Source: Caulobacter vibrioides (lineage in GTDB: Bacteria > Pseudomonadota > Alphaproteobacteria > Caulobacterales > Caulobacteraceae). From it: a stretch of 64,000 nt of DNA. The stretch is from contig LNIY01000106.1 of NCBI GenBank assembly GCA_001449105.1, positions 1 through 64,000 on the forward strand, written 5' to 3'. The notes beneath the pieces are model-generated. The model was not told where the DNA came from and ran no database searches. It saw nothing but the letters and a program-made list of their open reading frames with translations. Positions 51,011 to 61,190 of the stretch are shown here, in pieces. How positions within the stretch are numbered: position 1 is the stretch's first letter; the number at the start of each line of letters is the position of its first letter. The translations under genes were made by a program, and so were the position numbers.

Positions 51011-51087
51011 GGCCCGGTAGCTCAGCAGGATAGAGCAGCGCTTTCCTAAAGCGAAGGTCGGGGGTTCGAGTCCCTCCCGGGCCGCCA
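51011..51087 (+). tRNA. tRNA-Arg(CCT)
   Basis: A 77-base cloverleaf with encoded CCA: acceptor GGCCCGG / CCGGGCC plus discriminator G, D-stem GCTC/GAGC, anticodon loop TTCCTAA with anticodon CCT (reads AGG), T-stem GGGGG/CCCTC with TTCGAGT loop. The base pair 27-43 is a G-A mismatch; all other stems pair. AGG is a rare codon in this GC-rich genome. Confidence 0.93.
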
Positions 51088-51289: not shown

Positions 51290-52498
51290 CTAGCGGGCGA
51301 GGCTGTCTGGGATCTTGTGGTCGGTGTCGGCGGGCAGCTTGCACCAGCGCCCGCTCATCCAGTAGCCGACCGGGCAGCCGTGGTCGGGCTTGCGGCGATA
51401 CTGAAAGACGATGCAGGTGTTCAGATAGACGTCCACGCAGGTGCGGCCGTCACGCTGCACGCTGCCCGAGCCGATGACCAGACTTCCGCCCTGGTTGATC
51501 ACCGATCCGGTCTTGGTCGTGCCCGAGCCGCCCACATCGGTCGAGGCCGAGCGGCCGCTCGCCACCGTCGTGACGTCGTTGGTGACCACCGTGGACGACT
51601 GACCGCCGCGAATGGACCCGATCGCCGTGGTCGCCCGACCGCCGCCCGTGGCCACCGTGGTCACGTCGTCGGTGCGCACCGTGACGCTGGAGGAACCCGA
51701 GACCGACACGCTGGTGCGCGGCGATATGGCGTTCGCCTTGGCGGACGAGGTCGCGGCCGACGCCGATGCCGACCGTGTGGAGGCGCCCCTCCCCGCGCCG
51801 TCCGCCCGGACCTGCCCGGACGGCCCGGCGGCATCCGGCCGATCGGGCGGCGCGGTCACCGGCTCGCCCGCGATCGGCACCGCGTCACAGGCGCCGGACT
51901 GCGCCAGACGACAGTAAAGCTTTCGCCCGACCCACTTGCCCGCCCATTTGCCGCCCTCTCCAGCGGCGTAGGTTCCGACGACCACGACTACGCCGTAACA
52001 TATGGCGAGACTGACCGGCCCAAGGCTCGCGCACAGGAACGCCGCCGCGCCAAGGATGAGCCCCTCGGCCGCTATACTCGCCACCAGTTGCCCGACACCG
52101 CCGAGCGCCTCTTCAAGCGACCGGTCGTACTGGCCCAGGACCATATGCCAGATCGACTTGGCCATGCTCAACCCGGCGCTCAGGAAGCTGCTCGCCGCAC
52201 TCAGCGCCTTGCCGACGGCGGGGGTGCTCGGCGCGGCCTGCGAGGCGCTGGCCATCAGGCGATCCATCCGGGAGATCTGGTCTCGGTGATCGAACCAGCT
52301 TTTCACCACGGCCTTGTTGAACTTCTCCGCGCCCAGCATGCCCCCGGTCGCGCCGATCGCGCCCAGCCCTTGGTCGGCGTATTCGAGTTCATTGAAAGGG
52401 GGCGGTTCGACCAAAGGCTGGGCCAGGGCCGCGTGATGGAACGGCGCGACCGCCAAGGCCAGGCTGAGGAGGAGGACTTGCAGCCAGCGCAGGATCAC
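51290..52498 (-). CDS. exported protein with AIGSI repeats and Cys-rich end
   Basis: A 402-residue protein of no known family, last gene of the left operon. The GTG at 52498 overlaps the preceding gene's stop and starts a signal peptide (ILRWLQVLLLSLALAVAPF...ALAQ). Residues 30-130 are helical, 135-190 hold hydrophobic glycine-rich segments (GLILGAAAFLCASLG, AICYGVVVVVGTYAAG), and 240-345 are Ser/Thr/Val/Gly repeats: VTTVATGGGRATTAIGSI and VTTVASGRSASTD. The repeats match those of the first gene of the operon. The end has five cysteines (TCVDVYLNTC, HGCPVGYW, RWCKLP). Possibly a secreted or surface-anchored beta-repeat protein. Confidence 0.8.
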   Translation of the reverse strand: MILRWLQVLLLSLALAVAPFHHAALAQPLVEPPPFNELEYADQGLGAIGATGGMLGAEKFNKAVVKSWFDHRDQISRMDRLMASASQAAPSTPAVGKALSAASSFLSAGLSMAKSIWHMVLGQYDRSLEEALGGVGQLVASIAAEGLILGAAAFLCASLGPVSLAICYGVVVVVGTYAAGEGGKWAGKWVGRKLYCRLAQSGACDAVPIAGEPVTAPPDRPDAAGPSGQVRADGAGRGASTRSASASAATSSAKANAISPRTSVSVSGSSSVTVRTDDVTTVATGGGRATTAIGSIRGGQSSTVVTNDVTTVASGRSASTDVGGSGTTKTGSVINQGGSLVIGSGSVQRDGRTCVDVYLNTCIVFQYRRKPDHGCPVGYWMSGRWCKLPADTDHKIPDSLAR

Positions 52499-53472
52499 AA
52501 GACGGCTCCACCGAAAAGGTCCACGAGGGTGAGACGGGCGACCTCGCCGCCGCCCGGCGTCTCGCGATGGGCGCTGAGCACCACATAGCGACCGCTGAAC
52601 GGGGTGCAGGAGACGACGAACCAGAGCCCCTCGATGCGGGCCACCGACACCGGCGACAACCGGGCCCGCAAGGCCGGCGCCATCTTGGCCAGCTCTGCGA
52701 AGCTCCGCCGCGCCTCCGCCGAGAGGCCGCCGGCGGGCGGTGCGCCGGACGACAGAGCCCCGACCATGGTCCCGTAGGACGGATAGCCCTGCCGGGCGCG
52801 GGAGAAGGCCTGGACCGCGGCGGCCGGACCGAGCCCGCGCTCGACCAGCAGCGCGCCGGGCGCGGCGCTCAGCCGGTCGAAGGCGGCCGGCGGCGTGGCG
52901 CTCTCGAACGCGAAGATCTTGCCGAACTCCACGTCGCCGGCCCCGCCCGAGCCCCGCAGGGCGTCGACGATCGAGATGCGCGCCATCCGGCGTCGCCAGG
53001 CCGGCAGCGGATCGGTCGTCGCCGGTCGGCCCGGGACCATCGCTCCGCCGGCGATCAGCTTGGCCTGCTCGGCGCGCCGCCCCGTGGGCGACCACAGGGT
53101 CACCCACCACAGGTCCAGCAGCGGATTGAAGAAGGCCACCACCGGGGTCTGGCTGCGGGCGTGACCGACGAACACCTGGGCGTTCTGGAAGAACAGCATC
53201 CACAGCGTATCGACGGCGTCAGGCGGCAGCAGGTCGCGCGCGGGCAGGCCCGCCAGGACCGCCGGCGCCACCATCTCGCCGGCGGCGCGGATCGAACTCA
53301 TCGCCTTCAGCTTGAGGCGCATGGCGTCGGCGCCCAGGCGTACGAGCGGCGACGGCCCGCTTTTGCCGGGCTCGTAGCGATAGGGCGCCAGTCCCCGGTC
53401 GGCGCGGCTGGACGAAAGCGGGACGACGGCCAATCCCGCGCCCAACAGCAAGTCGCGTCGGACGAGGTTCAC
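52495..53472 (-). CDS. unknown protein with Tat-like signal
   Basis: A 325-residue protein I cannot assign. GTG at 53472 overlaps the preceding stop. The N-terminus VRRDLLLGAGLAVVPLSSSRA looks like a twin-arginine or Sec signal, so it is exported. The body has a helical part (RLKLKAMSSIRAAGEMVAPAVLAGL), the aromatic block FFNPLLDLWWVTLWSP and a C-terminal beta-rich half (IEGLWFVVSCTPFSGRYVVLSA). Four-base overlaps on both sides place it firmly within the operon. Confidence 0.78.
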   Translation of the reverse strand: MNLVRRDLLLGAGLAVVPLSSSRADRGLAPYRYEPGKSGPSPLVRLGADAMRLKLKAMSSIRAAGEMVAPAVLAGLPARDLLPPDAVDTLWMLFFQNAQVFVGHARSQTPVVAFFNPLLDLWWVTLWSPTGRRAEQAKLIAGGAMVPGRPATTDPLPAWRRRMARISIVDALRGSGGAGDVEFGKIFAFESATPPAAFDRLSAAPGALLVERGLGPAAAVQAFSRARQGYPSYGTMVGALSSGAPPAGGLSAEARRSFAELAKMAPALRARLSPVSVARIEGLWFVVSCTPFSGRYVVLSAHRETPGGGEVARLTLVDLFGGAVL

Positions 53473-53879
53473 GGCTTTGGCCTCTGGCAGTCGGCCGGCG
53501 CGCCGATGACGCCGATCTGGATGCAGGCCGGCCCCGCGCCGGGTTCCCTGGAGATCACCGCGTCGCGCACGCTGACCACCGTTTCGGCCGAGCCGGAGAC
53601 GGGCCTCGACCGATCGCGATCGACCTTCAGGCTCTGAGTTTCCCGGCTGACCACCGCCTGGCGGCGCGCCGCCTCGGCGGCGGACACCGGGATCCCGCCG
53701 ACGACCAGACCGGAGTCGGCGCCCGGAGTGGTTTCGTCCCGGGTCAGCCGGCCATCCACCATGACCGTGGTCTCGACCGGCGCCGAGGCCGGCTGCCCAT
53801 CGGTAGACTGGGCGCTCGCCGGCGCCGAGACGGCGAGCGTCACGGCCAGGCCGATCAGGCAAAGGTCGCCGCCCTTCAT
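53469..53879 (-). CDS. small exported protein
   Basis: A 136-residue exported protein without known family. Signal peptide MKGGDLCLIGLAVTLAVSAPASAQ, then a Val/Thr/Ser-rich mature chain (VETTVMVDGRLTRDETT, SGSAETVVSVRDAVISRE) that could form beta strands, with two cysteines near the end (PACIQIG, DCQRPKP). Overlaps its neighbours by four bases on both sides. Confidence 0.78.
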   Translation of the reverse strand: MKGGDLCLIGLAVTLAVSAPASAQSTDGQPASAPVETTVMVDGRLTRDETTPGADSGLVVGGIPVSAAEAARRQAVVSRETQSLKVDRDRSRPVSGSAETVVSVRDAVISREPGAGPACIQIGVIGAPADCQRPKP

Positions 53880-55561
53880 GGTTCGCCCTTCTCGGCCACC
53901 CGGATCGCGCCTACCCTCACGACCGACTCCAGCCCCTTGCGATCGAACGTCTGGTGCTGGTCGACCAGGGCGCGGATCTGCCGGGCGAAGACGTCGGCGG
54001 GCTTTTCCGACGGCCGGGCCGGCGTCAGGGTGAAGGCGGTCAGGGCCTCGTTCGTCACGGTCGACGGCCCCGGGGCGTCATAGGGCCTGGCGCGGGCGAC
54101 GCAGGCCACGCGCTCCTCGCCGACATCCGTGAGCTTGAGCGAGAACTCGGACTCATCGGCGGGGATACGCAGCGTCGCACCGGCCTCGATCGGCGTCGCG
54201 GCGCCGGAGAACTGGTTGGGATAGAGCCGCATGATCGCCGGCGCCCCGTCCGGTCCCATCGTGCTCATGTAGCAATAGAAGTAGGCGGTCTTCCTGGGCT
54301 TCAGCAGGACCAGCAGGCGATCGCCCTTGACCCGCACCGGATCGCCGAGGTCGAGCGTGAAGTCCAGCCCCGCGGCCGCCGCCACGGGCATGGACGGCGG
54401 CGCCCCCCGCGGCGCGGGCAGCCCCGTCGACACCGCCAGCGTCATGTTGCGGTTCAGCATGCTGTAGTAGAGATCGAAATCGACCTGCGTGCCGGGGGTC
54501 AGGCCGGTCCTGGCGCGATAGCGGGCCACCGCCTCGGCGAACTGCGGCGTCACCGTACCGTCCACTGGGCCGCGATAGACCTCGTCGGCGGCGGCATCCA
54601 TCCTGGGCGCCCCCTCGGGCGCGCGCGGCTCGTCCTGCGTCGCCGAGCCCTGCTCCTGCATCCTGGTCAGCGCGTTCTGCACGGCGCTGATCCGGCTGGC
54701 CGGCGTCATCGCCTGGTAGAACTTCAGGGCCGTACGCTGGGCCAGCGGATCGGTGCTGGGCATGGACAGGCAGCGCCAGTACGGCACGCTGGTGAACTTG
54801 CCGACCAGCTCGATCATGCTGAGCTCGATCAGGGTGCGTACGGCCTGGTGCGAGCCTTCCGAGCGATCGCTCTTGACCGAGTAGTTGATGGAGCCGAACG
54901 AGACCAGGCCCTCGATGTTGCGCATCTGGCCGGTCTTGATGATCCGGATGGTGTTCTGAGCCCGCACGCCGGTCAGGGCGGAATCGTCGCCCTTGTTGAA
55001 GATGCCCATGTCGATGGACAGGTTGGTGACGTCCTGGGCCTTGCTCTTGCCCAGCGACAACGCGCTGAGGGCGACGCCGCCGCTCTTGCCGTCGCCCATC
55101 ACGCCCTGGTCGACCTGAGTGATCGCGCCGGCGATATAGTACGGCACACGGACCTCGTGGCGCTGCCGCTCCGGGTCGGTGCTCGACGAGCGCTCGTTGT
55201 CGACGTCGTAGAAGATGAACGCCCGGCTCTGCTGCGACATGGCGTCGAGCGCCGAGATCATCATCTCGCGCGTGCCGACATTGACCACCCCCGTCTTGTC
55301 CGGAAGGCCCTCGGTGGTGATCTTCAGGTCGCGCTTGCCATACTGCAGCAGCAGCTCGTCCATGCAGCGCAGGGACTCATCGAAGCTGGTGACGGTGCGC
55401 GTCGGTCGAGTGCTGGGCGAGGCCACCACGGTCGAAGCGGTCGGATCGTTCGCCTGCATCGCCTGCGCCGACCCGACCATGGACGCCGAGACAAGGAGCG
55501 CCACGCTCCATCGCGCTATAGTTCCAAAAGCCAAGACCCCCCCCGGATCCCTGTCCTGCAC
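53876..55561 (-). CDS. CsgG-like and DUF4384-like exported protein
   Basis: A 561-residue exported protein. The GTG at 55561 gives the longest form; a TTG at 55534 behind a run of eight G is better placed and starts the signal peptide (GTIARWSVALLVSASMVGSAQA). Residues about 55-265 resemble CsgG, the outer-membrane curli export channel: YYIAGAITQVDQGV, SGGVALSALSLG, VRAQNTIRIIKTGQ, then the helix HQAVRTLIELSMIELVGKF. Residues 328-370 look like a peptidoglycan-binding helical motif (GTVTPQFAEAVARYRARTGL). About 400-490 resembles DUF4384 (AIMRLYPNQFSG, IEAGATLRIPADESEF), a domain often linked with bacterial caspases. It lacks an obvious lipobox cysteine, unlike classical CsgG. The three assignments are by eye and graded moderate. 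Confidence 0.75.
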   Translation of the reverse strand: MQDRDPGGVLAFGTIARWSVALLVSASMVGSAQAMQANDPTASTVVASPSTRPTRTVTSFDESLRCMDELLLQYGKRDLKITTEGLPDKTGVVNVGTREMMISALDAMSQQSRAFIFYDVDNERSSSTDPERQRHEVRVPYYIAGAITQVDQGVMGDGKSGGVALSALSLGKSKAQDVTNLSIDMGIFNKGDDSALTGVRAQNTIRIIKTGQMRNIEGLVSFGSINYSVKSDRSEGSHQAVRTLIELSMIELVGKFTSVPYWRCLSMPSTDPLAQRTALKFYQAMTPASRISAVQNALTRMQEQGSATQDEPRAPEGAPRMDAAADEVYRGPVDGTVTPQFAEAVARYRARTGLTPGTQVDFDLYYSMLNRNMTLAVSTGLPAPRGAPPSMPVAAAAGLDFTLDLGDPVRVKGDRLLVLLKPRKTAYFYCYMSTMGPDGAPAIMRLYPNQFSGAATPIEAGATLRIPADESEFSLKLTDVGEERVACVARARPYDAPGPSTVTNEALTAFTLTPARPSEKPADVFARQIRALVDQHQTFDRKGLESVVRVGAIRVAEKGEP

Positions 55562-55595
55562 TTGGATCGGTCGTCGCGTTCCGTCCTCGCCGCGA

Positions 55596-55952
55596 TCAGC
55601 GGCGGCAGAGAACGATGACGTCCTCGGTGACGGTCACCGCGTCGCCCGAACCGCTGAGATTGGAGCCGACCAGGCTCTTGGGCTTCTGGGCCTGGCCGGT
55701 GGTCTGGCCGCCGATCTGGGTGACGCCGCAGTCCGTCGAGATCGCTCGATCGGTCAGCTTCTTCGGGTTCAGCTTCTTGCCGTCACGCTGGGCGGCGACG
55801 AGATTGGCCTGGGCCGTCGCCTGGGCGATCTTTGAATCGGCCTGGACCATCGCCGTCTGCCCCTTGTTGAGCTGCTGCGCGGACACCGAGCCCGAAGCAG
55901 CGACGCAGAGGCCGGCGAGCACGAGCGCCGCGCAACGGCCGGCGGCTAGCAT
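55596..55952 (-). CDS. small exported protein
   Basis: A 118-residue exported protein, second gene of the left operon. Signal peptide MLAAGRCAALVLAGLCVAASGSVSAQ; a helical Gln/Ala-rich part (ADSKIAQATAQANLVAAQRDGK) and a C-terminal SGSGDAVTVTEDVIVLCRR. Cysteines at DCGVT and the C-terminal LCRR may pair. Its ATG overlaps the stop of the repeat-protein gene by seven bases. No family recognised. Confidence 0.78.
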   Translation of the reverse strand: MLAAGRCAALVLAGLCVAASGSVSAQQLNKGQTAMVQADSKIAQATAQANLVAAQRDGKKLNPKKLTDRAISTDCGVTQIGGQTTGQAQKPKSLVGSNLSGSGDAVTVTEDVIVLCRR

Positions 55953-56359
55953 TTCTTGGTTCCGATCGAGCCGATCAGGGTTTCGGCGCAGCTCTTGTCC
56001 TTGGCGATCGTGGTGGTGTCCTTGGCCGAGACCGAGATGTCGGTCTTACCCTTGATGTCGGCGCGGTCGATGCTGCCGATCGCGGTGTAGGCCTCGCTTC
56101 CGCCCTCGGCCGAGGTGGTCGTGCCGGTGGCCGACACCTGAACGGTGGTGTCGCCCTTGATCTTGCTGTCGGTGATGCTGCCGATCGCGGCGCTGGCCTT
56201 GGAGTCGCCCTTGGCCGAGGTGGTCGTGCCGCTGGCCGAAACCGTGATCTTGGTGTTGCCCTCGATCTGCACGCCGCCGCCGTCGGTCGACTGCGCATAA
56301 CCCAAGGTGGCGGCGCCGCTCACGGCGACCGAGATCATCAAGCAGAGCGCTAGTTTCAT
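55946..56359 (-). CDS. exported protein with three 35-residue AIGSI repeats
   Basis: A 137-residue exported protein, first gene of the left operon. Signal peptide MKLALCLMISVAVSGAATLGYAQ, then three tandem units of about 35 residues (35-70, 71-105, 106-137): VSASGTTTSAKGDSKASAAIGSI, VSATGTTTSAEGGSEAYTAIGSI and VSAKDTTTIAKDKSCAETLIGSI. The units would stack as beta strands, as in curli or beta-solenoids; the third is the most diverged and adds cysteines. GAGGGGGAA precedes the ATG at 56359. It is a candidate substrate of the CsgG-like protein, by analogy with CsgA. Confidence 0.82.
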   Translation of the reverse strand: MKLALCLMISVAVSGAATLGYAQSTDGGGVQIEGNTKITVSASGTTTSAKGDSKASAAIGSITDSKIKGDTTVQVSATGTTTSAEGGSEAYTAIGSIDRADIKGKTDISVSAKDTTTIAKDKSCAETLIGSIGTKKC

Positions 56360-56456
56360 GTCGGTTCCCCCTCTGAAAGCCTGGTCGTCAGCCGACCTGC
56401 TTCCGGTGAAGCTTATTGCGAGAACGATGATCCGCCAACGAAAAATAACAACCAAA

Positions 56457-56481
56457 GAGAGTCAAAAACACCTCGACTCTC
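56457..56481. promoter_or_regulatory. inverted repeat in the divergent promoter
   Basis: GAGAGTC (56457-56463) and GACTCTC (56475-56481) with an 11-base spacer in a stretch of A-rich sequence unlike its surroundings, within the 174 bases separating the two operons. It could be the operator of a regulator that controls both. Confidence 0.45.
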
Positions 56482-56533
56482 CAAAAACGTGAATGCATGA
56501 CTATCGGAAAGCGAGACCGCGGGGGCGCGACGC

Positions 56534-57607
56534 ATGCGAGTGTTGACGGGGGGAGCGGCGGCCCTGCTGCTGACGGCGGGCTATGCGTTGCCCGCCCATG
56601 CCCAGTTGTTCAAAGGCAAGTCCTCCGGAGCGCCGGACGCCTGCGCTGTCGCCTCCAAGGAGCTGCAGGGCGCCAAGGGCGCGGTCACCCGGACGGTGAT
56701 TTCCCGAGGCGTACTGGGCGCGGCGCTGGGCGCGGGCGCGACCCTGCTCACCAAGCGTGACGCCAAGGCCAGCGACGTGGCCAAGGGCGCCGCCGGCGGC
56801 GCCCTGATCGGGGCCGGCGTCGGCTATCTGGAAGCCAAGCGCCAGCAGGCTCAGGACGCCCAGGCCCTCGCGGGCTCGATCTACCAGGACATGGCCGCCA
56901 GCAACGGCGAGGCCGCCAGGGCGCTGCGCGCCTTCACCCAGGCGCGCGGCTGCCGCCTGCAGCAGGCCCAGCTGATCAAGACCGCGCACCAGTCCGGGCG
57001 CCTCGACGCCGAAACCGCGCAGAAGCAGCTCACCGATCAGCGCCTCAAGCTGGAACTCGACATCCAGCAGGTCCAGAAATTCCTCACCGACTACGACCGG
57101 ACGATGGACGACTTCGAGTCCGCCGCCGGCTACCTGGCCCAGGGGCGCGAAACGGATCTCGCCTATGTCGGCGGGCTGAAGTCGCGCCGCAACGCGTTGA
57201 TCATGCGCGACACCGCCCTGGTCGCCCCTCCGCCCACGCCGCGCCTCAAGGCCCAGGGGGCGGTGAACGTCCGCGAGAAGCCCGACGCGGCCTCGGCCAA
57301 GATCGGCGCGCTGGCCGCCGGCCAACTCGTCGACGAAGTGGTCGAGGACGAGACCAAGGCCGGCTGGCGCAAGATCAAGCTGGCCGACGGGCGCACGGGC
57401 TACGTCACCGAGGCGCGCGTCCGCCCGGCCGAACCGGCGCAGGAGCCCGTCAAGAAGGACCCGCCCCTGCCCAAGGCCGACGCTCTCAGCCCCGAGATGC
57501 GTTTCGTGGCCGCTCCGATGTTCGAAGGCGTCGAGAAGCGCAGCGCGCTGTCGACCGAGATCAAGGCCGCCCAGGCGGATTCCGCCGGCGCCACCTTCAC
57601 TCTATGA
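56534..57607 (+). CDS. exported glycine-zipper and SH3-domain protein
   Basis: A 357-residue exported protein, first gene of the right operon. Signal peptide (to about residue 24, PAHAQ), glycine-zipper region (SRGVLGAALGAGATLL and GAAGGALIGAGVGYLEAKR, residues 58-102) that may insert in the outer membrane, a coiled coil (about 100-195), and a bacterial SH3 domain (residues 238-297: AQGAVNVREKPDAASAKIGAL...GRTGYV) likely to bind peptidoglycan. The stop overlaps the caspase gene start (ATGA). It may anchor the caspase to the envelope. Confidence 0.85.
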   Translation: MRVLTGGAAALLLTAGYALPAHAQLFKGKSSGAPDACAVASKELQGAKGAVTRTVISRGVLGAALGAGATLLTKRDAKASDVAKGAAGGALIGAGVGYLEAKRQQAQDAQALAGSIYQDMAASNGEAARALRAFTQARGCRLQQAQLIKTAHQSGRLDAETAQKQLTDQRLKLELDIQQVQKFLTDYDRTMDDFESAAGYLAQGRETDLAYVGGLKSRRNALIMRDTALVAPPPTPRLKAQGAVNVREKPDAASAKIGALAAGQLVDEVVEDETKAGWRKIKLADGRTGYVTEARVRPAEPAQEPVKKDPPLPKADALSPEMRFVAAPMFEGVEKRSALSTEIKAAQADSAGATFTL

Positions 57608-60600
57608 CCGGGCCGGGCCTGCGTCCTCCGACGTGGTGGCGCGCGCTGGCGGCCGTGCTGATCGTCGGCGCGGGCCTGTCCTGGCCGGGCGTGCGGGCGC
57701 TTGCCCAGACCCCCTCGCCGCAGAACGGGCCGCCGCCATTCGTGCGTGTGGAGACCGGCGCGCACGAGGCTTTCGTCAACCGGATCGCCTGGCTGGACAG
57801 GAACCGGCTGCTGTCGGTCTCCGACGACCAGACCGCCCGCTTCTGGACGCCCGGCCGCCAGGGCGTAGCGCGCGTCGTCCGCGGGCTCGCCGGTCCGCAG
57901 GACCAGGGCGCGCTCTACGCCATGGCCGCCTCCGACAAGTACATCGCGCTAGGCGGCCGCGCGGGAGCCGACGCGGGCGACGTCTTCGTGCGGCTGCTGG
58001 ACCGGCGTACGGGCAAGCCCGCCGGCCTGCTGTCCGGCTTGCCCGACGCGGTGTCGGCCCTGGCCTTCTCGCCTGACGGCGGCAAGCTGGCGGTGGGATT
58101 CAACCAGCGCGGCGTGCGGGTTTACGCCCTGGGCGACGGCCGTCCGCGGCTCGAACGCGACACCCGGGGCGGGACGGTCTCGGACCTGGCCTTCGTCGGC
58201 GGCGAGGTGCTGATCGCCATCGAGTCCGAGCGCGGCGTCCGGCGCTACGACCTGACCTCGGGCGAAGACCGGCTCTGGGCGCTTCCGGCCGACTTCAGAC
58301 CCTGGCGGGCCGAGGTCTCGCCCGACGGCGGCGAGCTGGCGATCACCTCGCGGGCGCGATCGGCCTTCGCGACGATGTCGTTGACCGACGGGACCTCGCG
58401 CATCGTTCCCGTGGGCGGCGGCGCGGGCGCCTGGCCGACCCTGGCCTGGAGCATGGATGGCGCCTCCCTCGTCCTGGGCGGCCGCGACGCCCAGGGCGGC
58501 GTCCTGCGCCGGGTCTCGGCCGCGAACGGGACGCTGATCGAGGAGATCCGGACCTCGGATTCCGCCGTCACGGCCGTGGCCTCCGGACCGGCCGGCGTGG
58601 CCTACGGCGAGGCCGACGGCGCGATCGGCCTGTGGCGGCCCGGACGGCCGATCGAGCCGCTCTCAAGCCCCGCCAAGCTCTCGTTCCGGGCCGCCGGCTC
58701 GGCGCCGCTCTCGGTATCGAGCGACGGGACCAAGGTCGCGCTGTCGAACAAGGGCCGTCCCTTCGCACTGCTCGACATGGGCGGCCGCCGCGTAACGGCG
58801 CTGACCGGCCCGCCGTCGGGCCTCGCCCAGCGAACCGCCGCCGCGCCCGCCCAGATCGCCCGCCTAAGAGGGCTGGAACCCGACGAGAAGGTGCTGGACG
58901 CTGCGGTGCTCGACGGGGACCGCCTGCTCGTCGGCACCAACTTCCACCTGCGCCTCGCCGGCCCCGACGGCCGGAGCCTGTGGACCAAGGCCGCCTCGGC
59001 GCCGGTATGGGCCGTCGCGGTCAGCGGCGACGGCCGCTCGGCGATCGCCGCGCTCGGCGACGGCGTGGTGATCTGGTCGGACGTCCGCACCGGCGAGGTT
59101 CGCCTCAGCGCCTTCGTCGCCTCCGACCTGCGCTGGGTCGCCTGGACGCCACAAGGCTTCTTCGACCGCAGCACCGACGGCGGCCGGCTGATCGGCTATC
59201 AGGTCAACCGCGCCCCCCGCGAGGAGGCCGACTTCCTCGACCTGGATCGGATGAGCCGCGTCTACTTCCGCAGCGATCTCGTGCAGGACGCCCTGCGAGG
59301 GGCGAGCGCCGACGTCCAGCGCCTGGCGGACGCCGGCCGCCGGGCTGGACGGCCGGAGGACCGGCTTGCCGGTGCCCCGCCCCCGGACCTGTCGCTGGAG
59401 CGGATCTGCGGCGTCGACGCCGGCAAGATCACCGCCTGTTTCGAAGGCCAGGAGAGCGGCCCCACGGCCGTGGCCTGGAACAGACTGGTGTCGAGCGGCC
59501 AGGTCGACGTGACCCTTCGCGCCCGCTCCCGCGACGGCGGCGCGATGGGGGCGACCAGCGTGCGGGTCAACGGCGTGGCCCAGGCCCCGAAGATCATCGT
59601 CCAGACCGCGCCTGACGGCGAACTGCGGCGCTTCCGGCTGGACCTGCCCGCCGGCGACGTCAGGCTGGAGATGAGCGTCGCCGACGCGACCGGCGCGCTG
59701 CAGTCGGCCTCGACGGTGATCACGGTGGCCGACGTCCAGCGCGGCGACCGACGGCCCGCCGCCATCCGCGTCCTGGCCGTCGGGGTCAGCGACTACGCCC
59801 TGGCCGAGTTCGACCTGGAGCGCGGCGTGGCCAGCAACGACGCCGCCACGGTCGCCTCGCGCCTGTCGGACGTGGCCAACCTCGCCTATCTCGAACGGTC
59901 CTCGGCGGTGCTGAAGGACGATCAGGCCACGGGCTCCAACATCCGCGCCGCGTTCGAGAAGCTGGTCAGCGAAAGCCAGACCGACGACGTGGTGATCATC
60001 TACCTGGCCGGACATGGCGGACAGATCGCGGGCGACTACGTGTTCGCCCCCTACGAGATCGGGGCCACCCAAGGCGGCGCCGCGGCCCTGCGCCGGCTGG
60101 AAGAGCGCCAGATATTCTCCGACCAGGTCGGCGAGGCGATGATGGCGGCCGACGGCTTCAAGCAGGCCGAACTGGCCGACTATCTGGCGCGGCTGAAGGC
60201 ACGCCGCGCGGTGCTGGTGCTCGACACCTGCTTCTCGGGTTCGTTCGGCCGTGAAGGGCTGACCCGGCGGCGCGACATCTCCACGGCCATGACCGAGCGC
60301 CTGGCCCAAAGCTCGGGCCGCTACGTCGTGGCCGCCGCCCGCGCTTTCGCCATAGACAATCCCGAAACCGCCGGGAGCCAGACGGGCCACACCACCTTCA
60401 CCGGCTCGGTGCTGCGCGCCCTCGGCGGCGAAGCCGATCGAGACCGCGACGGCGCGGTGACGTTGTCGGAGCTGGCCGACTACGTGCGCGAGGACGTGCC
60501 GCGCCGGACGGCCGGGCTGGGCATGGAGCAGACGCCGGTTATCGACTTCGTCGGCAACCCTTACTTCAACTTGATCCAATCGCGCGGAGGGGCGCGCCAG

Positions 60601-60615
60601 GGAGGCGGAAAATGA
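57604..60615 (+). CDS. exported WD40-caspase (peptidase C14-like) fusion
   Basis: A 1003-residue exported protein. A signal peptide or N-terminal anchor (TWWRALAAVLIVGAGLSWPG, about 10-35) is followed by WD40/YVTN-like repeats (about 45-560; AFVNRIAWLDRNRLLSVSDD, SALAFSPDGGKLAVGF, WRAEVSPDGGELAIT), a beta-rich linker and a caspase-like domain (about 715-990). The catalytic pair is His804 (YLAGHGGQ) and Cys876 (VLDTCFSGS), in the metacaspase/peptidase C14 order. The end ELADYVREDVP is common in such caspases. Bacterial WD40-caspase fusions are known but mostly cytosolic; the signal here places it in the envelope. Overlaps the OmpA-like gene by ATGA. Confidence 0.9.
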   Translation: MTGPGLRPPTWWRALAAVLIVGAGLSWPGVRALAQTPSPQNGPPPFVRVETGAHEAFVNRIAWLDRNRLLSVSDDQTARFWTPGRQGVARVVRGLAGPQDQGALYAMAASDKYIALGGRAGADAGDVFVRLLDRRTGKPAGLLSGLPDAVSALAFSPDGGKLAVGFNQRGVRVYALGDGRPRLERDTRGGTVSDLAFVGGEVLIAIESERGVRRYDLTSGEDRLWALPADFRPWRAEVSPDGGELAITSRARSAFATMSLTDGTSRIVPVGGGAGAWPTLAWSMDGASLVLGGRDAQGGVLRRVSAANGTLIEEIRTSDSAVTAVASGPAGVAYGEADGAIGLWRPGRPIEPLSSPAKLSFRAAGSAPLSVSSDGTKVALSNKGRPFALLDMGGRRVTALTGPPSGLAQRTAAAPAQIARLRGLEPDEKVLDAAVLDGDRLLVGTNFHLRLAGPDGRSLWTKAASAPVWAVAVSGDGRSAIAALGDGVVIWSDVRTGEVRLSAFVASDLRWVAWTPQGFFDRSTDGGRLIGYQVNRAPREEADFLDLDRMSRVYFRSDLVQDALRGASADVQRLADAGRRAGRPEDRLAGAPPPDLSLERICGVDAGKITACFEGQESGPTAVAWNRLVSSGQVDVTLRARSRDGGAMGATSVRVNGVAQAPKIIVQTAPDGELRRFRLDLPAGDVRLEMSVADATGALQSASTVITVADVQRGDRRPAAIRVLAVGVSDYALAEFDLERGVASNDAATVASRLSDVANLAYLERSSAVLKDDQATGSNIRAAFEKLVSESQTDDVVIIYLAGHGGQIAGDYVFAPYEIGATQGGAAALRRLEERQIFSDQVGEAMMAADGFKQAELADYLARLKARRAVLVLDTCFSGSFGREGLTRRRDISTAMTERLAQSSGRYVVAAARAFAIDNPETAGSQTGHTTFTGSVLRALGGEADRDRDGAVTLSELADYVREDVPRRTAGLGMEQTPVIDFVGNPYFNLIQSRGGARQGGGK

Positions 60616-61190
60616 ACATCGCGATGCGCGCCGGACCGGCCATGGGGCTGATCCTGTTGCTCTGCTCGGGGGCCGCCATGGCCCAGCCCAAGACCGTCTA
60701 CTCGGACAAGGCGCTCAGCGTCGAGCAGCTCGAGGCCCTGTTCGGCGACGGCAAGCCCGCCGCCAAGCCTTTGCGCTTCCGGGCGACCCCGGAGTTCGGC
60801 GCTTCGGCGCGGCCCGCCGCATCGGCTGCGGAACCCGCGAGCGCGGCCGAGACGCAGGAAGCGTTCTCGCTCTCCTATCCGATCGAATTCGAGGTCAACA
60901 GCGCCGAGGTCGAGGCGCGCTGGATGTCTGACCTCAGGCCGCTGGCCCAGTATCTGCTGCGCCATCCCGACGCGGCGATGCTGGTGATCGGCCACACCGA
61001 CCAGACCGGCGCGCCCGCCTACAATCAGCGGCTCTCGGAGCGCCGCGCCGCGGCCGTGCGCTCGGTTCTGATCGCCCAAGGCGTGCCGGCCGAACGGCTC
61101 ACCAGTCTTGGAAAAGGCCAGACTTCGCCCATGCCGAACGAACCGCCCGACAGCGCCAGGAACCGACGCGTGGAGTTCCGTAAGCTCTAG
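60612..61190 (+). CDS. OmpA-family peptidoglycan-binding protein
   Basis: A 192-residue exported protein. The signal region MRAGPAMGLILLLCSGAAMAQ could be cut by signal peptidase I, and CSGA might instead be a lipobox. A linker rich in Ala/Pro is followed by an OmpA C-terminal domain (about 85-190; SYPIEFEVNSAEVEA, VIGHTDQTGAPAYNQRLSERRAAAV, RNRRVEF) that binds diaminopimelate peptides of peptidoglycan. Last gene of the right operon; its stop codon is inside the family C element. Confidence 0.92.
   Translation: MNIAMRAGPAMGLILLLCSGAAMAQPKTVYSDKALSVEQLEALFGDGKPAAKPLRFRATPEFGASARPAASAAEPASAAETQEAFSLSYPIEFEVNSAEVEARWMSDLRPLAQYLLRHPDAAMLVIGHTDQTGAPAYNQRLSERRAAAVRSVLIAQGVPAERLTSLGKGQTSPMPNEPPDSARNRRVEFRKL

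Follow-up and report, generated by a model that had tools for sequence, protein, structure and literature searches.

A nine-gene cluster at positions 51290-61190 of a 64,000-nucleotide stretch of Caulobacter vibrioides contig LNIY01000106.1 (hereafter the window; its genome is G000) encodes what we regard, on balance, as probably a CsgG-type outer-membrane export and surface-assembly system, similar to those of curli and the holdfast anchor, equipped with a periplasmic caspase that would act as its sensor or processing unit. The genes form two divergent operons, g1-g6 and g7-g9 (Table 1), and the core of the set is co-inherited as a module across the Alphaproteobacteria and outside the class.

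The CsgG-type gene and its operon partners

By its family profile, the central protein, g3, is a relative of CsgG and HfaB. An alignment of ten g3-family members matched three CsgG/HfaB-type proteins across the whole domain with an hhalign probability of 98.7 (E 2e-16), and the two of these comparison proteins that were checked with Pfam both exceeded its CsgG cut-off (5.7e-15 and 1.6e-17). The Pfam CsgG model was also matched weakly by four of the ten members (best 0.0056), and HfaB was the only NCBIfam model listed for g3 itself (E 0.011; 15 bits, with a cut-off of 300). A DUF4384 domain was found in g3 over the Pfam cut-off (E 2e-8); across the family DUF4384 occurs in seven of the ten members and PG_binding_1 in eight, g3 itself not among them.

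Profiles built without the window, which avoids circularity, were tested on the window proteins and on 800 shuffles, and these show g1 and g2 to belong, at the level of sequence, to protein families of the module. A profile made from 16 repeat proteins of other CsgG loci matched g1 with E 1.8e-14 (best of 800 shuffles, 0.027), and g2 was the top match to a profile of nine relatives with E 0.0021 (best of 800 shuffles, 0.28). AIGSI repeats are shared by g1 and g6 (38% identity over 111 amino acids, E 6e-14), with a repeat unit, judged by eye, of about 32-36 residues that starts with G-x-V-x-I-x-G. The repeat-family profile left g6 unmatched; in this protein a long hydrophobic, glycine-rich stretch precedes the repeats and the end is rich in cysteine, so that it might insert into the membrane as a tip or anchor. 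Weak likeness to g1 was found in g4 (blastp 2e-4), which we left undecided as a repeat protein because its E of 3.2 against the family profile falls among the shuffles. No Pfam, NCBIfam, PADLOC or plasmid match was found for g5, and three weak matches among 101 genomes, all in Caulobacter, were rejected because no called gene in those 20-kb stretches resembles it; they look like wrong-frame readings of a GC-rich stretch.

Every cluster product satisfied a simple, home-made export rule requiring a hydrophobic core and a small-x-small cleavage site (9/9), in agreement with the first-pass annotation, which had assigned an export signal to each. The rule is crude, since 11 of 38 other called genes (window 1-50500) also pass once the threshold is set to admit all nine, and some of these are plainly not for exported proteins. 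The N-terminus of g5 carries a twin-arginine translocation (Tat)-like motif, RRDLL.

The same annotation had described six leftward and three rightward genes around a shared region of 174 bases, and open reading frame calls reproduced these coordinates, with g1-g6 running leftward (56359 to 51290), g7-g9 rightward (56534 to 61190) and the divergent starts separated by 56360-56533. All nine frames were recovered by a home-made codon-usage caller, with shorter starts for g1, g2 and g3. The annotation's statement that eight of the nine genes abut with overlaps was right about the overlaps and is better put as six of seven within-operon junctions: five overlaps are of four bases (ATGA at g3/g4, g7/g8 and g8/g9; GTGA at g4/g5 and g5/g6), that of g1/g2 is of seven, and g2/g3, with a 34-base gap, is the sole non-overlapping junction.

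Table 1. Positions, strands and descriptions of the cluster features (window coordinates; aa, amino acids).
Feature	Positions	Strand	Description
g6	51290-52498	-	402-aa exported protein with a hydrophobic part, AIGSI repeats and an end rich in cysteine; putatively a second exported subunit or a tip
g5	52495-53472	-	325-aa protein bearing a Tat-like signal; none of its candidate relatives was convincing
g4	53469-53879	-	136-aa exported protein, possibly a degenerate repeat protein
g3	53876-55561	-	561-aa protein: CsgG/HfaB-type domain, degenerate peptidoglycan-binding region and DUF4384; putative outer-membrane channel
g2	55596-55952	-	118-aa exported small protein with C...GDVI..C-like end
g1	55946-56359	-	137-aa exported protein with AIGSI repeats and terminal cysteines; putative subunit for export
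Shared promoter region	56360-56533	.	Divergent, 54% GC; contains inverted repeat 56456-56482
g7	56534-57607	+	357-aa TagQ-like glycine-zipper protein with SH3 domain
g8	57604-60615	+	1003-aa exported WD40 + caspase (C14) protein with intact His-Cys dyad
g9	60612-61190	+	192-aa exported OmpA-domain protein; putative peptidoglycan anchor

No sigma-70-like promoters were found. The inverted repeat of the shared promoter region (GAGAGTC-n11-GACTCTC) holds in each arm a GANTC site, the Caulobacter CcrM methylation motif, and scores also as a leftward terminator-like site; a role as an operator or in cell-cycle control is possible. Just past the end of g6 lies a tRNA-Arg (CCT) at 51011-51087, the sole RNA family match. 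The idea of an island inserted at this tRNA was not supported, since no direct repeat of the tRNA was found within the window (the longest other match is 11 bases, on the opposite strand) and the GC content of the cluster (0.706) is close to that of the window (0.700).

Distribution of the module and linkage to caspases

In a first sample of 101 genomes, comprising the window's own and 100 relatives from 17 genera, g3 was matched in six: its own, G020 strongly (7e-26), and four weakly. The two weak matches that were inspected (L010, L011) are HfaB-like CsgG genes; at L010 (8299-10294, in G008, another Caulobacter) two tandem CsgG/HfaB-type genes follow small exported proteins. A class-wide sample yielded a long match (E < 1e-100) in 8 of 385 genomes, the window's included, and a phylum-wide sample yielded matches at E <= 1e-30 in 13 of 200, 11 of them outside the Alphaproteobacteria. 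We scored 26 neighbourhoods, including two Azospirillum plasmid loci; 24 contain the core gene, and 19 (the window and 18 others) were informative. Left out of the 19 were L010 and L011, which lack the core gene and served as HfaB-type comparisons, along with L032, L047, L049 and L050, which lie on contigs under 5.4 kb, and L052, a weak match of 247 amino acids with no partner.

The partners recur at many of these loci. An OmpA protein is present at 15 of the 19 informative loci, a repeat protein at 13, a g2-type protein at 12 and a secreted caspase at 9, the corresponding counts over all 24 core-gene loci being 16, 14, 12 and 9; these figures are descriptive, because one genus contributes both L042 and L043, the repeat match at L009 is 4.4 kb distant (E 3e-4) and part of the material for several profiles came from scored loci. 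A g2-type gene stands directly upstream of the CsgG gene at 11/19 (10/18 besides the window) and third upstream in L057. The gene order repeat, g2, CsgG is common to the window, L034, L036 and L040-L046, and three repeat-type genes stand in a row at L042, L043 and L045. The first-pass annotation had named a lack of co-inheritance in relatives, or of export signals on most products, as what would speak against its proposal; the core genes are co-inherited in relatives, and by the crude rule all nine products have such signals, so both checks come out in its favor.

Also found at these loci were genes for candidate surface proteins. Directly after the CsgG gene, L040 (10564-12960) and L049 (1984-4302) encode proteins of 798 and 772 amino acids with IGxI-type repeats by eye; the second matches the repeat profile (2e-4) and the first was judged by eye, without a Pfam match, and both are likely to be large adhesins of the family. 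DUF2807 adhesin-like genes occur at L036, L042, L043 and L044. Among module genes elsewhere are Crp-type regulators (L035, L037 and L038, by eye) and nucleotide cyclases (L035 and a CHASE2 cyclase at L064, by Pfam; L038, by eye; L056, as annotated), which suggests cyclic-nucleotide control of the module in relatives.

The evidence that the caspase belongs to this module comes first from its position. A caspase is present in eight of the nine alphaproteobacterial genomes that have the core gene (0-3 per genome), and in six of the nine it is no more than 8 kb from the CsgG gene; with the window excluded, a caspase within 10 kb was seen five times in the Alphaproteobacteria against a chance expectation of 0.043 (P 1e-9). 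The linked caspase is the only one found in four of the nine genomes (G000, G020, G122 and G196). Architectures vary, with WD40-caspases at the window, L044 and L045, caspase-FGE proteins at L034, L035, L056 and L064, a Sel1-SH3-caspase at L038 and, by Pfam, C14 alone at L039 and L009. In G447 the set is split: one site (L037, at 3.59 Mb) has two repeat genes and CsgG, with g2, OmpA and caspase not there, and about 2.6 Mb away a second site (L064, at 0.99-1.00 Mb) holds together OmpA, the CHASE2 cyclase, DUF4384, caspase-FGE, g2 and a DUF2807-like protein, the last just below cut-off. The caspase is located with the other missing parts, which we consider telling for its membership.

These observations bear on the possibility that two unrelated operons simply stand back to back here, with an exporter of surface repeat proteins to the left and an operon for a WD40-caspase to the right. 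It would fit the divergent arrangement of the halves, the placement of the CsgG gene and the WD40-caspase on different plasmids in Azospirillum ramasamyi and A. lipoferum, and the lack of a g7 counterpart at other CsgG loci. Caspase linkage at eight other informative loci in varied layouts, the chance estimate for Alphaproteobacteria without the window, the presence of another caspase (a caspase-FGE) at the A. ramasamyi CsgG locus itself and the split locus of G447 all argue the other way, and we consider such a coincidence unlikely.

The TagQ-like and caspase pair

On sequence grounds, g8 is a C14 caspase with an intact catalytic His-Cys pair and predicted protease activity: WD40 and Peptidase_C14 both exceed the Pfam cut-offs (C14 with 45.8 bits against 21.4), and H804 and C876 are invariant in all seven aligned WD40-caspases. 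It is the only caspase found in its genome. Its neighbor g7 has an SH3_3 domain over the Pfam cut-off and a glycine zipper below it, and scored against NCBIfam TagQ with E 6.5e-10 and 38.8 bits, far from the cut-off of 300; the g7-type proteins of A. ramasamyi (71.0) and Pseudoroseomonas cervicalis (60.7) also fall below that cut-off. A Pfam OmpA domain was found in g9 (E 1.3e-19), for which an N-terminal motif noticed by eye in OmpA relatives was unsupported (E 1.3, with 1.1 as the best of 300 shuffles). The caspase, SH3/glycine-zipper, OmpA, AIGSI and DUF4384 parts that the first-pass annotation had listed are borne out by Pfam and blastp, the glycine zipper below cut-off.

Matches to g8 were found in 36 plasmid records, with 78-83% coverage in four (A. 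ramasamyi, A. oryzae, A. lipoferum and P. cervicalis) and 37% in the next listed. In all four, a glycine-zipper gene with 20-31% identity to g7 lies directly upstream of the g8 relative, and type VI secretion genes lie within 1 kb downstream: tssL/tssM/tagF/tssI in Azospirillum, and tssI with tagH and tssK nearby in Pseudoroseomonas. Outside the Alphaproteobacteria, the CsgG locus L045 has a WD40-caspase that belongs to the same family as g8, aligning with the plasmid WD40-caspases at E 5e-141 to 1e-46 over 92-98% of its length and keeping both His and Cys. The type VI sheath family (VipB) was not found in G000; 2 of 20 module-bearing genomes were positive, and 17 of the 19 besides the window's were negative, so the g7-g8-type pair is not specific to type VI secretion and appears to be an envelope unit serving two kinds of machine. 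In one sheath-positive genome, G454, two caspase-like genes with a peptidoglycan-binding domain (L062 9501-10748 and L063 9900-10877) each sit two genes from a Ser/Thr kinase, that of L062 within the type VI sheath-gene cluster. At L057 (10833-15021), the CsgG-OmpA genes of A. lipoferum are followed by genes for FHA and PP2C proteins, an association known from the control of type VI secretion by phosphorylation.

The occurrence of such a pair next to type VI genes points to a sensor/protease unit that is portable between machines spanning the envelope. As a tentative extension, the TagQ-like and WD40-caspase unit might serve two unrelated machines of this sort, the type VI apparatus of Azospirillum and, in this cluster, a CsgG-DUF4384 fibre exporter, and cut a protein of the machine or its cargo so as to start or complete assembly.

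The same neighborhood could be taken to indicate a contact- or damage-sensing system for killing or death, in which g7-g8 would act like TagQ-TagR, the caspase would kill the cell itself or its neighbors, and g6 would be a toxin delivered through g3. Caulobacter is reportedly known for surface glycine-zipper killing proteins, and the TagQ-like score of g7 and the type VI genes beside all four plasmid relatives of g7-g8 are in keeping with this idea. TagQ-TagR are described, in excerpts of two papers, as envelope sensors of type VI secretion and of attack (PMC10482370, PMC6657622). Set against these points, G000 has no type VI sheath gene that we found, searches with Pfam, NCBIfam and PADLOC recognized no immunity gene among the nine, g6 is named in none of the libraries used (direct comparison with CdzC/D was not made), and a core without a caspase in reach is common (10/19); we consider a killing system rather unlikely.

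An anti-phage defence island with a caspase effector seems to us highly improbable. The caspase does resemble the EACC1-associated type of NCBIfam (78.8 bits, with a cut-off of 140) and the PADLOC caspase model (E 2e-10), but PADLOC 2.0.0 recognized no anti-phage gene set among the nine proteins, its one other match being a ZorB/MotB likeness of the OmpA domain (best E 1.6e-8), and all products carry export signals by the crude rule. No nucleotide-signalling partner was recognized among the nine, either, by Pfam, NCBIfam or PADLOC. The first-pass annotation had proposed an envelope-associated protease-plus-secretion machine for defence, competition or programmed death; the machine fits the data, and the three purposes found no direct support in PADLOC matches or an immunity gene. 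Defence or programmed death is possible, with no positive evidence beyond the caspase itself.

Comparison with known systems and a possible mechanism

The first-pass annotation knew of no described system with this make-up, a statement that can be refined: g3 is, by profile, a CsgG/HfaB relative, the core resembles curli and holdfast export, and the g7-g8 pair has counterparts in type VI clusters. On their defining tests the cluster differs from curli, HfaB and TagQ, and we file it as a variant of CsgG-type export with a surprising caspase unit. In the open-licence PubMed Central literature no paper was found that joins CsgG, caspase and DUF4384, or CsgG, caspase and Alphaproteobacteria, and none of the papers there on DUF4384 is about CsgG by title; among the papers listed by broader queries, titles and opening lines of abstracts pointed to nothing on this gene set.

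TagR is FGE-like. The cluster shares with TagQ-TagR a TagQ-like protein, a pair whose relatives adjoin type VI genes, and FGE domains on caspases of other CsgG loci; unlike TagQ, g7 has an SH3 domain, no lipobox and a score far below cut-off, its partner is a WD40-caspase, and no sheath gene was found in its genome. Bacterial orthocaspases with WD40, DUF4384 or FGE, as described in portions of two papers, have the same domain, His-Cys dyad and kinds of accessory parts as the caspases here; those portions treat pseudo-caspases in phototrophs and cell death, and a link to a CsgG-type exporter does not appear in them (PMC6426788, PMC7475262).

HfaABD of the Caulobacter crescentus holdfast anchor is, by analogy, the nearest tested counterpart of the cluster. 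HfaA and HfaD, according to an excerpt of one paper, need the CsgG-like HfaB in order to be displayed at the surface (PMC6707917). The likeness lies in a CsgG-family outer-membrane protein with its own surface proteins, in the same genus. With curli, or type VIII secretion, the cluster shares a CsgG-type channel beside short repetitive exported proteins, and a partial text reports that Alphaproteobacteria are without csgE and about half of their genera without csgF (PMC3521004). The cluster might instead be a curli or holdfast-anchor (HfaABD) operon of the ordinary kind to which genes have been added, a reading that could draw on these likenesses, on the homology of g3 and on HfaB being its only listed NCBIfam model. 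Nevertheless, no curlin-repeat, CsgE or CsgF match was found among the nine with Pfam or NCBIfam, g3 has no lipobox and is far from the HfaB cut-off, DUF4384 is added (along with peptidoglycan-binding domains in most relatives), the repeat proteins have no Pfam family, and g2, OmpA, TagQ-like and caspase genes are present besides; separate HfaB/CsgG-type genes also exist in other Caulobacter genomes (L010, L011). We therefore hold an ordinary operon to be quite improbable. By eye, the g3 relative of C. endophyticus (L009) likewise has no lipobox.

Several results weigh against an export and surface-assembly system with a caspase unit. Taken alone, g3 is below both the Pfam CsgG and the NCBIfam HfaB cut-offs, so the CsgG likeness advanced by the first-pass annotation stands through the family profile; a PDB profile search with the g3 family gave no CsgG chain among ten matches, all at profile positions 261-409, that is, in the peptidoglycan-binding stretch and just beyond; and, by eye, relatives at L034, L035, L036, L037 and L040 have the lipobox that g3 lacks. 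No Pfam match was obtained at the limits used for g1 and four related repeat proteins, and hence no curlin repeat in them, and convincing counterparts of g4, g5 and g6 were absent at the other CsgG loci examined, where unfiltered tblastn gave likenesses to g4 (E 6e-4) and g6 (E 9e-5) in L009. No caspase was found in the stretch examined at 10 of the 19 informative loci; G332 has the core and no caspase that we found, and G397 only unlinked caspases. In genomes of other classes the linkage is only modest (2 linked caspases against 0.19 expected, P 0.016), an estimate covering 8 of 11 genomes, three with contigs under 5.4 kb being left out, in which caspases are more numerous (G565 was entered with eight, six listed and two on L045). 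The caspase part of the L045 protein is unseen by Pfam C14 at E 0.01 and below cut-off in NCBIfam (1.6e-12), its assignment resting on NCBIfam, our own profile and the alignment. Lastly, g7-like proteins were not found at other CsgG loci, and g7 has no lipobox, which, by eye, most relatives with an inspected N-terminus possess.

For the system that we favor, an outer-membrane exporter with a caspase unit, we infer secretion, fibre formation and the job of the caspase as follows. All nine products would cross the inner membrane, as their export signals indicate. g3 may then form a CsgG-like ring channel, tied to peptidoglycan by its middle domain and by g9, through which g1 and g6, and perhaps g4, would exit to build a fibre or an adhesive coat on the cell surface; g2, from its position, might be a chaperone, nucleator or plug. 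The g7-g8 pair would monitor the machine or the envelope, and could cut a partner to switch it on, mature it or clear it. A surface structure is favored because large repeat proteins follow the CsgG gene (L040, by eye, and L049) and DUF2807 adhesin-like genes accompany the module.

To our knowledge, the role of most bacterial caspases is unclear. In the gene set described here, found across distant Proteobacteria, secreted caspases are linked to a defined module for outer-membrane export. The exporters form a CsgG-type family that carries peptidoglycan-binding and DUF4384 domains, has repeat cargo of its own and is connected to type VI secretion through the shared pair. Since distant Proteobacteria share much of the set, it may be that some caspases of bacteria take part in building or watching surface structures, and their cleavage targets are directly testable, as a short list of candidate substrates is encoded beside the caspase. 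If the pair is indeed a portable unit, bacterial caspases would serve a structural purpose at the cell surface, distinct from any part in cell death.

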